This document shows, piece by piece, positions 8,371-11,537 of a stretch of DNA of 64,000 nt. Both the position numbers and the translations under genes were made by a program. The number at the start of each line of letters is the position of its first letter. Within the stretch, counting starts at the first letter, position 1. The notes beneath the pieces were generated by a model. It was not told the DNA's origin. It saw only the letters and a list, made by a program, of their open reading frames with translations, and made no database searches. The stretch lies in the NCBI GenBank assembly GCA_013289765.1, contig JABCZI010000002.1, forward strand, positions 496,001 through 560,000. The letters are read 5' to 3'. The DNA comes from Acidobacteriota bacterium. GTDB lineage: Bacteria > Acidobacteriota > Terriglobia > Terriglobales > Acidobacteriaceae.

Positions 8371-9129
8371 CTACTTCATCTGATCCAAAATCGATCCCAC
8401 AATCCCACCCACCACGCCGCCCTGCACGGTCTCCCGGCTCGCCTGATGCGGCATAAATTCCGCGAGCGCATGCGCGAGCTTCGAGATCGGCAACGTTTGC
8501 AGCCAGATTCTTCCCGGACCGGTGAGCGCCGCCAGAAAAATTCCGTCGCCGCCGAAGATCAGATTCTTGATGCCAGGGACGGTCGTGATTTCAAAGTTCA
8601 CACTCGACTGGAACGCGCCAACGTGTCCGGGATGCACGCGCAGCGTCTCGCCCGGCTTCAGATCGCGCATCACCAGTTCGCCGGAGAGTTCCAGCCAGAA
8701 CGTGCCCTGTCCATGCACCCGCTGCAGCACAAATCCGCTGCCGCCGAAAATTCCCGCGCCAAGAGATTGCTGAAAGCCGAGGCCGATCTGAATTTCCGGA
8801 GTTCCACACAAAAATCCGTGACGATGAATTAGATATTCGTGGCCCGCCGATACTTCTACGGGAACGATGTGCCCCGGCAGCTTGGTCGCGAACGCCAACT
8901 CGCCCGCGGCGCCAAGCGCGCGATACTCAGTCATGAAAATCGATCCGCCGCCGGCCACCCGCTTGAGCACGCCAAACAGTCCACCGCCGCCGCCGAACTG
9001 CGTGTGCGTGGTCATCTGAATGGAACTGCCCATCCAGGAAAGCTCTCCGGCTTCGGAAATGATTGATTCGTTCGGCTCGAGCGCGAACTCGAGCACAGGC
9101 ATGGTGGTGCCGGTGATGCGGCTTTGCAT
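8371..9129 (-). CDS. AIM24 / TIGR00266 family protein
   Basis: A 252-residue protein of the AIM24 family, beta-prism proteins related to a yeast mitochondrial biogenesis factor; bacterial members have no settled role. Evidence: the N-terminal MQSRITGTTMPVLEFALEPNESIISEAGELSWM, the glycine-rich GGGGGLFG and GGGS segments, and the mid-domain GFLCGTPEIQIGLGF and GTFWLELSGE. There is no signal peptide or membrane segment, so it is probably cytoplasmic. It lies 33 bases downstream of the retron reverse transcriptase on the same strand and could be read through from it. I know of no family link to retrons, so the adjacency may be chance. Confidence 0.85.
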   Translation of the reverse strand: MQSRITGTTMPVLEFALEPNESIISEAGELSWMGSSIQMTTHTQFGGGGGLFGVLKRVAGGGSIFMTEYRALGAAGELAFATKLPGHIVPVEVSAGHEYLIHRHGFLCGTPEIQIGLGFQQSLGAGIFGGSGFVLQRVHGQGTFWLELSGELVMRDLKPGETLRVHPGHVGAFQSSVNFEITTVPGIKNLIFGGDGIFLAALTGPGRIWLQTLPISKLAHALAEFMPHQASRETVQGGVVGGIVGSILDQMK

Positions 9130-9162
9130 TGGGAAACCTCGGTGGAAGTATACAGTCTCGGA

Positions 9163-10494
9163 TCAGGCCGTCCACTGAACCCGATTTAGTATTTCACGAA
9201 GACGTTTACCCTTCGCCGGATTGATCATCTCCACAAACGCCACACGTCCCTCGAGATGAGAACGGAACTGCGACCGGCCATCCCGATTTTGACTTTCTGG
9301 GCCAGAGCGCACGCAGTTATGCAGCGTGGCTTTAAGATGATCAAAGTCGCGTCGTGGAACATTCATTCTCTGATTGGTGACCAAGCCCGCCAGATACTGT
9401 CGCACTCCCTGCCGCATGATTCGCGTCTTGCGATGATGGATGGTGAAGCCTTCTTCGTGGAGGACAGAAGCCACATGAATTGCGAAGCGCTCGGCACATC
9501 TCTGAAAATCCTTGCCGCCGGAAAATGCCAAGTCGTCTGCGTAGCGAGAATACCTCGCTCCCGCGGACTTTGCTAAAGCATTCAGCCGGCAGTCCGCACG
9601 ATAGAAGCAAAGGTTCGCCAGAGCCGGCGACGTGGGCGCGCCTTGGGGCAGATGCGGCCGGGAATACAAACGGCGAGCCTCGCCAACGACGGGCGCATCA
9701 ACCCTGGAATGAATGTTTGTCCAGACCTGGCGCGGAGCGGCATTCGTACAAATGCCGCCCAGCAAGTCGGCAACCGGCTCGGGATAACCCAACGTGCGAA
9801 AAAAGGATTGAACCCGCACTCCCGCAAACGCAGGAAAGAAGTCTTGCAAATCCATTCGCAAGACAACCTTCTGCGCGATATGGGAAGCAACGAAAGTTTT
9901 GATCGATCGCCCCTTCACGAAGCCATGCACTGCCGGATGGGACGGAACCTTTGCAAGAATGTAGAAAAGGATCTGTCGTTGTAAGTCTTTCAGCCGCGAT
10001 TTTGGCGCTTCAATCAGCCTTATGGCGCCAAACCTCTTAGACAATATCCGGTAATGATAGTGTCTCAATTTATCGCGTGACTGTTTGTAGCCGAGGGCCT
10101 TAAGATCCGCGAACCACCGGAGTTCGCCGCTATCCAGTCCCAGCCAAGCAGCCAGATCGCGCACCGATACGATAGCCGGGACGTCCCACGAAACGGCCGC
10201 AGCGACAGGCTGCATTTGTTGAGGATCGGTCAGCCAGGCAGCTAACGAGAGCTCGCCCGCATACTTCGTTCGGGCCTTCCCGAGTCCCGAATCGTTCTGT
10301 AAGAAAGCAATTACGTCCCGATAGCGAGGTCGCGCACTGTTTCCAAACTCCCGCACATACCGTTGGGCCAGCGGACGAAGCCAGCGCCAGGACTTCCCCA
10401 GCGTCCGGCTGCAGCGCAGAGTGAGCAGTTCAACGGTGGCTTCGCCGGCGAGAAGGGATTGGGCCAACGCACTGAGCAGAGACGAATCCTGCAT
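9163..10494 (-). CDS. Retron-type reverse transcriptase (long, myxobacterial-like)
   Basis: A 443-residue reverse transcriptase predicted to make msDNA from the ncRNA just upstream. About the first 130 residues form an N-terminal extension ending in VSVRDLAAWLGLDSGELRWF. RT motifs follow: VHGFVKGRSI, VVLRMDLQDFFPAF, LPQGAPTSPALANL and the catalytic YADD (residues 318-321). The C-terminal part has GLVTN and GRVAFVEMINPAKGKRL, retron-type thumb features. From memory the layout and wording are close to the long RTs of myxobacterial retrons such as Mx162. Two motifs deviate: the usual NAxxH reads FVASH, and VTG reads LAG. ATG 10494 is preferred to the in-frame GTG 10542, which lies inside the ncRNA. 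No maturase, Cas1 or nuclease domain is attached. Confidence 0.9.
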   Translation of the reverse strand: MQDSSLLSALAQSLLAGEATVELLTLRCSRTLGKSWRWLRPLAQRYVREFGNSARPRYRDVIAFLQNDSGLGKARTKYAGELSLAAWLTDPQQMQPVAAAVSWDVPAIVSVRDLAAWLGLDSGELRWFADLKALGYKQSRDKLRHYHYRILSKRFGAIRLIEAPKSRLKDLQRQILFYILAKVPSHPAVHGFVKGRSIKTFVASHIAQKVVLRMDLQDFFPAFAGVRVQSFFRTLGYPEPVADLLGGICTNAAPRQVWTNIHSRVDAPVVGEARRLYSRPHLPQGAPTSPALANLCFYRADCRLNALAKSAGARYSRYADDLAFSGGKDFQRCAERFAIHVASVLHEEGFTIHHRKTRIMRQGVRQYLAGLVTNQRMNVPRRDFDHLKATLHNCVRSGPESQNRDGRSQFRSHLEGRVAFVEMINPAKGKRLREILNRVQWTA

Positions 10495-10502
10495 GGCAAG
10501 AG

Positions 10503-10670
10503 GCGGTGGAACGCTCCAACGAGTCTGACCCTGCGTGAGCACTCCTGCGCAGTTCGCGCAGCGAAGCTCATGCGACGAATTTGCAGTTCCTTACGTTACC
10601 CTGGGGTAACCCCAGAGAGGTCGAGCCGAGCCTGAAGGCTCGGTTAACCGAGCTTGGAGCATTCCACCGC
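10503..10670 (-). ncRNA. Candidate retron msr-msd RNA
   Basis: A 168-base segment directly upstream of the RT, read on the minus strand from 10670 to 10503. It is bounded by an inverted repeat: arm a1 is 10654-10670 and arm a2 is 10503-10519, 17 bp with one mismatch that becomes a G-U pair in the RNA. Right after a1 comes AGC, the context of the branching guanosine in known retrons; the G would be 10653. Inside are a perfect 16-base palindrome (10638-10653), a 7-bp hairpin (10626-10643), a 6-bp hairpin (10601-10615, or the alternative 10595-10610), and a longer stem-loop near a2 (10533-10573) suited to be the msd hairpin. It begins 15 bases after the upstream gene stops. Inferred from structure only. 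Confidence 0.65.
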
Positions 10671-10685
10671 GTGGTGGACAATATA

Positions 10686-11537
10686 TCAGCTTTCAGTGAC
10701 TAGACCGTGCACCACCATTTTCCCCACGTCATCCTTCTCCACATACGCCCACGGTGTTTTCGGATCATGCGTGAAAACCGTTAGCCATTTTTCCGGCAGA
10801 GCTTTGGCGTAGTACTGCTTCTTGCTTTCAATGGTTTGCAGCGGGTAGAGGTCGAAGCCCATGCCCCAGGTCAGGTCGATGTGCGCCGTGGTTGGGATGA
10901 GGTCGGAGATGTAGCAGGCCGTGCGGCCTCCGCTCTCGACGATCACCGCCTGCATACTGGCGGTGTGGCCGGGGAAAGTTTTCACCGAGATGCCAGGAAC
11001 GATTTCTTCGCCGCCTTTGAGAAGGGTCATCTGCCCGCTTTCGACCAGCGGATCATAGTTCTCGGGAATGTAGCTGATGGAGTCGCGCTCACTGGGTTTG
11101 CGTGCGTATTGCCATTCGCCCTCTGGCGCGTAGTATTTCGCACGCGGAAAGGTGGGGACAATCTTGCCGTCTTTGCCGCGGATGGTATTCCATCCGCAAT
11201 GGTCGAAGTGCAGGTGCGTGTTAATGACAATGTCAATGTCTTCTGGGCGAACGCCCGCAGATCCAAGATTCGTGAGCAGTTGCGCGGGCTGGCCGTAGAA
11301 TTTGACCATGCGTTCCGACAACTTGTTGCCCATGCCCGTTTCCACCAGCACATTTTTTTTGCCGGTGCGGATGAGCAGGGAGTTGAGTCCTGCCTGGACG
11401 TAATTCTTTTCATCGGCGGGCGCTTTGCGCGACCACATGACCTTGGGAATGACGCCGAAAAAGGCGCCGCCGTCGAGGGGGTAGGTGCCGTCGGAAAAAA
11501 CGCTGAGTTCGAAGTCGCCTAGAGTAAGGCTGGGCAT
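10686..11537 (-). CDS. Metallo-beta-lactamase-fold hydrolase (lactonase/GloB-like)
   Basis: A cytoplasmic protein of about 283 residues with no signal peptide. The zinc motif is THLHFDHCG, and later ligands are likely in FPGHTASM and CYISDLIPTTAHID. The architecture (FGVIPKVMW, then GQNSLLIRTG-like AGLNSLLIRTG, VLVETGMGNK) is that of the AHL-lactonase/methyl parathion hydrolase branch. The substrate cannot be named from sequence. The ATG at 11537 is chosen over an upstream TTG because PSLTLGDFELSVFSDG is the usual family start. It lies just upstream of the retron ncRNA on the same strand, so transcription could run into the retron. Confidence 0.87.
   Translation of the reverse strand: MPSLTLGDFELSVFSDGTYPLDGGAFFGVIPKVMWSRKAPADEKNYVQAGLNSLLIRTGKKNVLVETGMGNKLSERMVKFYGQPAQLLTNLGSAGVRPEDIDIVINTHLHFDHCGWNTIRGKDGKIVPTFPRAKYYAPEGEWQYARKPSERDSISYIPENYDPLVESGQMTLLKGGEEIVPGISVKTFPGHTASMQAVIVESGGRTACYISDLIPTTAHIDLTWGMGFDLYPLQTIESKKQYYAKALPEKWLTVFTHDPKTPWAYVEKDDVGKMVVHGLVTES

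Follow-up and report, generated by a model that had tools for sequence, protein, structure and literature searches.

The window analysed here is a stretch of 64,000 nucleotides from an Acidobacteriota bacterium (contig JABCZI010000002.1, positions 496,001 to 560,000). Its minus strand carries a reverse transcriptase (RT) gene and, upstream of it in the same orientation, an RNA element of 168 nt (10503-10670) and a promoter-like element. The features, in the order in which they would be transcribed, with the RT domain and motif last, are as follows.

10680..10688, minus strand: extended -10 promoter-like element TGATATATT (TGnTAnnnT motif)
10654..10670, minus strand: a1, 5' arm of the closing stem (pairing with a2, covariation)
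10653..10653, minus strand: predicted branch guanosine with the 2'-OH primer, the G of the CAAG adjoining a1 (role taken from known retrons)
10618..10652, minus strand: msr hairpin I, variable (RNA fold, comparison of loci)
10599..10617, minus strand: msr hairpin II with the core GGGGNTACCCC (alignment, covariation)
10520..10598, minus strand: putative msd region, the template (retron anatomy and the lone copy in genome G070)
10533..10573, minus strand: msd hairpin, GCATGAGC...GCTCACGC with an inner CTGCGC/GCGCAG stem (covariation)
10503..10519, minus strand: a2, 3' arm of the closing stem (pairing with a1; covarying in the 25-row alignment A1)
9163..10494, minus strand: retron reverse transcriptase, 443 aa (RVT_1, PADLOC profiles, PDB and Foldseek matches)
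10255..10494, minus strand: all-helical N-terminal RT domain, spanning residues 1 to about 80 (AlphaFold2)
9532..9543, minus strand: YADD catalytic motif, residues 318-321

An earlier, sequence-only reading had placed an RT with the motifs YADD, PQGAPTSP and GRVAFVEMINPAKG at 9163-10494, and all three were found in the minus-strand frame of 443 aa. The protein matched RVT_1 in Pfam (E 7.7e-18) and is the only RVT_1 match in the host genome; a scan against NCBIfam matched six models, every one under its cut-off. In the family of related RTs described below, the catalytic motif reads YADD in 28 of 30 rows and YGDD in the other two. The closest solved structure, by PDB sequence search and by fold, was the Ec86 retron RT, and the top 18 Foldseek matches of the window RT model were all retron entries (best TM-score 0.48, by query length).

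The 17-bp inverted repeat that had been proposed to close the 168-base region upstream of the RT consists of 17 pairs (16 Watson-Crick and one G-U), and the AGC reported after its first arm is contained in an AAGC that spans the end of a1. RNA folding of 10495-10680 (186 nt) gave -88.7 kcal/mol against -65.7 (sd 4.2) for shuffled sequences (z -5.43), and none of 200 shuffles reached its stability. The region is thus far stabler than its shuffles, with a1 and a2 paired as that reading had supposed. The msd hairpin folded as DNA gave a z of -2.10, with 7 of 200 shuffles equally stable. The 5' end of the msd DNA is expected near 10520, and comparison with the lone G070 copy predicts a length of about 60 nt. 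No RNA family was matched in an Rfam scan of 8500-11500, and the window element was the sole full-length match when the host genome was scanned with our RNA model.

RT relatives comprised 14 loci from named genome contigs and those of the 19 genomes with a match among 298 of the order. Duplicate removal left 31 loci, from which L033 and L034 were dropped as distant RTs of other types, and 29 were kept. An msr-msd element lay upstream of the RT in all 29 family loci with readable upstream DNA (that of L029 was anchored by hand). CAAG was present at the end of a1 in 27 of the 29, and so was the core of msr hairpin II, the exceptions for the core being L010 and L011. The covariation alignment A1 comprised 25 loci, with L010, L013, L014 and L015 omitted as too divergent; these four were later recovered by the RNA model R1 at 30-89 bits. 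The G at the branch site, just inside a1, was invariant in position and identity (25/25 rows). Analysis of the 25 rows by RNAalifold gave 31 pairs, 20 of which were changed on both sides, a result that 0 of 500 shuffles matched, and the cells with both-sided changes numbered 61 against 14.4 in shuffles. When the partner columns were slid by 1-3, the paired cells fell from 95.7% to at most 48.1%. The upstream inverted repeat was thereby found to be kept across the family with compensating changes, in accord with the sequence-only reading. Helices 3 and 4, those of the msd hairpin, had both-sided changes in 5/6 and 5/5 pairs, and the msd sequence was well conserved across the alignment.

Scanning with R1 matched 19 of the 298 genomes of the order, including all 17 that bear a family RT. 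The remaining two RT-positive genomes (G032 and G140) carry RTs whose scores assign them to types III-A and II-A; of the remaining two R1-positive genomes, G244 contains a truncated copy and G070 a lone msd. Beyond the training set, R1 located the element ahead of the RT gene in two Gammaproteobacteria (89 and 77 bits), three of three Burkholderia (57-59 bits), a planctomycete (55 bits), a verrucomicrobial genome (30.5 bits) and Dietzia (30.2 bits). It gave no match upstream of the RT in Tsukamurella or in Methylobacterium, the latter a type XIII row. Counting Acidobacteriota and a desulfobacterial training row, the RNA family spans six phyla, two of them at about 30 bits. Three loci with the same RT and RNA family (L093, L094 and L098) are located on large Burkholderia replicons. 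Among viral contigs, none of the 80 loci kept out of 90 exceeded 36% identity to the window RT, and therefore no close family member was seen there; the top identity among the best 20 of 41 matches in phage records was 31%.

The TGA of TGATATATT doubles as the stop codon of the neighbouring metallo-beta-lactamase-fold gene. The motif TGnTAnnnT was found 26-32 nt before CAAG in 19 of 29 loci, against a mean of 0.84 and a maximum of 4 in 200 mononucleotide shuffles. The housekeeping character ascribed to the surroundings was borne out by the adjoining genes, which encode dihydrouridine synthase, AIM24, a metallo-beta-lactamase fold and ClpB. Retrons are usually described as an RT, an RNA and a toxic effector (PMC12548924). 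A search of 35 loci (RT frame recovered in 31) revealed no conserved effector neighbour, and no neighbour cluster other than the RT included more than 5 loci; nor did the N-terminal domain of the window RT give a known match that would mark a fused effector. The commonest was a GuaA-like gene, present in 5/35 loci at variable distance, and a LeuS-like gene adjoined the RT in three loci and lay farther away in a fourth (both named by eye). In annotated records of Burkholderia pyrrocinia, Tsukamurella and Dietzia, no shared gene adjoined the RT. The flanks searched were mostly 4-6 kb, shorter at some loci, and a more distant partner gene would therefore be missed. The locus had been called a complete retron; since no effector neighbour is conserved, the term holds for the RT plus msr-msd, the older two-part sense, and not for the effector.

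Because the RNA is conserved, covaries and co-occurs with the RT, we conclude with high confidence that promoter, msr-msd RNA and RT form one unit, a retron of an unclassified clade with no cis effector found. An msr-msd with paired a1/a2 and conserved structure lies directly upstream of the RT, and the RT falls within the retron RTs by profiles, trees and Foldseek; two trees separated the family from the rows of group II introns and Drt2 (supports 98 and 92). The pairing of a retron RT with a cognate msr-msd, proposed from the sequence alone, is thus supported by conservation, covariation and RT phylogeny. Two outcomes named beforehand as fatal to it, homologues lacking the repeat and an RT outside the retron clade, did not occur.

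We then considered the distribution of the family. Among 396 genomes of the phylum, 11 matched the RT profile at 1e-60, four with family RTs and seven with type XIII-like RTs (G376 was assigned by profile score only). The type XIII-like retron RTs (L195-L202) have long N-terminal extensions and come from other families of the phylum, with two in G630. Within the genus, the family RT was present in 3 of 45 genomes and distant RTs in six more. In G300 and G305, both rated 6-7% contaminated, the retron occupies the interval that separates the metallo-beta-lactamase gene from the dihydrouridine synthase gene, as it does in the window; the stretch before the promoter is longer by about 500 nt, and the interval contains no AIM24 gene. 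In G299 and G281, two of 19 relatives compared, AIM24 adjoins the metallo-beta-lactamase gene and there is no retron. We dropped the idea that this empty site marks a fresh insertion in the window, since G300 and G305 have the retron at the same place; gain and loss are therefore inseparable. Elsewhere in the order, G244 (L091:6558-6699) has a truncated msr-msd with a1, msr and the start of the msd recognised by eye and no RT match within the 12.6 kb read, which is probably a retron remnant. The RT of G146 (L032 / L035, G146:C3:520851-522165) is split into two overlapping frames near residue 298, either a broken copy or an assembly error.

Such a patchy record, with few carriers in the genus, a site empty in two relatives, a truncated RNA without RT and a broken frame, would suit a decaying or selfish leftover without function. 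However, the window copy has its reading frame, closing stem, catalytic motif and promoter-like element intact, dN to three relatives (0.19-0.25) is far under a dS saturated at >2, and three genomes of the genus retain the unit at a common position. We consider a leftover improbable.

Comparison of the window RT with the PADLOC profiles gave 474 bits for RT_other, 453 for RT_outgroup and 325 for RT_XIII. RT_other was also the top profile for 8/8 other family members scanned, and RT_XIII ranked first for 7/7 RTs scanned from six other acidobacterial genomes. Trees were built by a quick method with SH-aLRT supports, contain long branches and include no DGR rows. In them, the family formed its own clade of 30 rows (support 97), with L011, L094 and L098 removed beforehand. 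The type XIII clade had a support of 98, and the union of the two a support of 80 with one viral row inside. L097 turned out to belong to type XIII and is not included in the family counts; L199 was excluded from the motif counts (wrong frame) and stands in the tree as a long branch. Judged by its sequence, the window RT is a member of an unclassified clade (PADLOC RT_other/RT_outgroup), with type XIII nearest.

Two signature motifs of retron RTs, NAxxH in region X and VTG in region Y, were each present in 14 of 16 validated retron RTs according to PMC6868368. The window RT has FVASH and LAG at these places. Across the family, the asparagine of NAxxH occurred in 0/30 rows (F in 26) and the histidine in 30/30, and VTG occurred in 0/30 (LAG in 23) with its G kept in 30/30. 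The removed rows L011, L094 and L098 read CSAIH/LLG, FAAPH/LAG and FAAPH/LAG, likewise without the N or VTG. With neither the asparagine nor VTG retained, the family may initiate synthesis and recognise its msr in ways unlike those of other retrons.

The sequence-only reading had linked the RT to the Mx162-type group. A type XIII (Mx162-like) retron, of the same clade and the same working, could be argued from RT_XIII being the third-best profile, from type XIII being the nearest clade and from the extended N-terminus common to both (about 100 residues precede the RT domain in the window protein); AAGC also resembles the myxobacterial branch sequences CAGC/GAGC quoted in PMC6868368. Against this, RT_other outscored RT_XIII by 150 bits, the two clades are separate, and NAxPH and VTG were kept in 7/7 type XIII rows and in 0/30 of the family. 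Furthermore, R1 found no like RNA at 8/8 type XIII loci (at most 1.5 kb of flank read). The Mx162 RT, in a provisional sequence that serves as a lead and not a test, presumably belongs to type XIII, with 510 bits for RT_XIII against 295 for RT_other. As far as these comparisons reach, the link to Mx162 is not supported, and we regard a type XIII retron as very unlikely. The loss of both motifs in all 30 rows, the lack of an effector next to the RT in 35 loci and the well-conserved msd might also fit an RT with an RNA partner that makes no branched msDNA. A templated or regulatory system of the DRT kind with retron-like anatomy would be an example. The order a1-G-msr-msd-a2-RT, the invariant G after a1, and the RT clade and folds are all those of retrons, however, and Mx65 (no NAxxH asparagine) and Ec48 (no asparagine, VTG changed) are validated retrons according to PMC6868368, which leaves that reading most improbable.

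For the N-terminal part of the RT (residues 1 to about 80), AlphaFold2 predicted five helices. Confidence was fair to good, the block-mean pLDDT over residues 1-80 being 69-93 when the whole protein was modelled and 75-94 for the domain by itself. This domain gave no Pfam match above the cut-off, and its best PDB match had an E of 4.4.

A lone 59-nt msd copy was found in G070 (L206:5178-5236, G070:C11:222177-222235, minus strand), a genome of the same genus without a family RT, at a site unrelated to that of the retron. It is 93% identical to the retron msd of G305 and 85% to that of G300, with the same ends in both comparisons; one end stops three nt before the expected start of a2 and the other lies just past the hairpin. 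The copy sits in a spacer behind a 3-hydroxyacyl-CoA dehydrogenase gene (named by eye). It was unmatched in the aligned loci of 9 relatives and in the directly read spacers of 7, and neither a clean empty site nor a target duplication was readable at the site. A dispersed repeat of about 85 nt (L206, query positions 624-708), with many copies in the genus, directly abuts it.

Scanning 45 genomes of the genus and 25 chosen genomes with model R2 gave no second lone msd above 24 bits, with filters by which weak copies may be missed. Matches of 59 nt in G300 and G305 were rejected as lone msds because they are the msds of intact retrons, so that one lone copy remains. DNA matches of 27-40 nt in G019, G081, G158 and G284 (E 5e-5 to 9e-4) were unconfirmed by R2, and the R2 hits in G298 and G196 (24 and 22 bits) proved on reading to be unlike an msd. 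The G070 copy is possibly msDNA inserted into the chromosome. The idea of msDNA insertion has a precedent, since two papers on possible msDNA retrotransposition in Nannocystis are cited in PMC6868368. Among the papers searched, none joined retrons, Acidobacteriota and msDNA, which is not proof of absence in print; one on Tn7 cargo mentions retrons, effectors and Acidobacteriota together, and among the matches listed one on cold-seep viruses mentions retrons with Acidobacteriota.

The RT and RNA of the window very probably make a short DNA hairpin, as predicted from the anatomy described above. The transcript would fold so that a1 pairs with a2, and the RT would bind the conserved msr hairpin II. 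DNA synthesis would be primed from the 2'-OH of guanosine 10653, and copying of the msd by the RT would yield a branched RNA-DNA molecule whose DNA hairpin measures about 60 nt. The RT-msDNA complex may then hold or sense a partner encoded elsewhere, perhaps via the helical N-terminal domain. Phage defence is the role that we would propose first, a guess with about an even chance of being right. A wider and rather doubtful proposal is that the family represents an effectorless retron class that works through its own helical N-terminal domain and the conserved msDNA hairpin, and whose msDNA occasionally becomes inserted into host chromosomes, as in the case of the lone G070 copy.

Such a clade, in which the RNA is conserved, a promoter-like element is present, one RT domain has a fold without known match and no effector gene was found in cis, offers a clean test case for the role of msDNA without an attached effector, a question that concerns myxobacterial as well as unclassified retrons. 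Further members can readily be located in genome sequences with the RNA model, and the G070 copy would be a tangible example of msDNA insertion into chromosomes, which has long been suspected.

Among known systems, type XIII (including Mx162-like myxobacterial retrons, with Mx162 placed there tentatively on the provisional sequence) is like the window retron in being the nearest RT clade and in its N-terminally extended RT. It differs in forming a separate clade, in having no R1 match at its loci and in retaining NAxPH and VTG. The PADLOC groups RT_other and RT_outgroup are the best profiles, but they are protein profiles, whereas the RNA has no Rfam match. Ec86 (type II-A) is the best solved structure by sequence and fold, with the RT likewise behind its msr-msd, but it has an annotated effector gene beside it, a shorter RT and about 24% identity to the window RT. 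Retron-Bth1 of Bacillus thuringiensis, as described in PMC12548924, differs in its Firmicute host, in its extrachromosomal element and in being split by a group II intron, but it resembles the window retron in having an unclassified RT and no apparent effector, and it makes RT-DNA.
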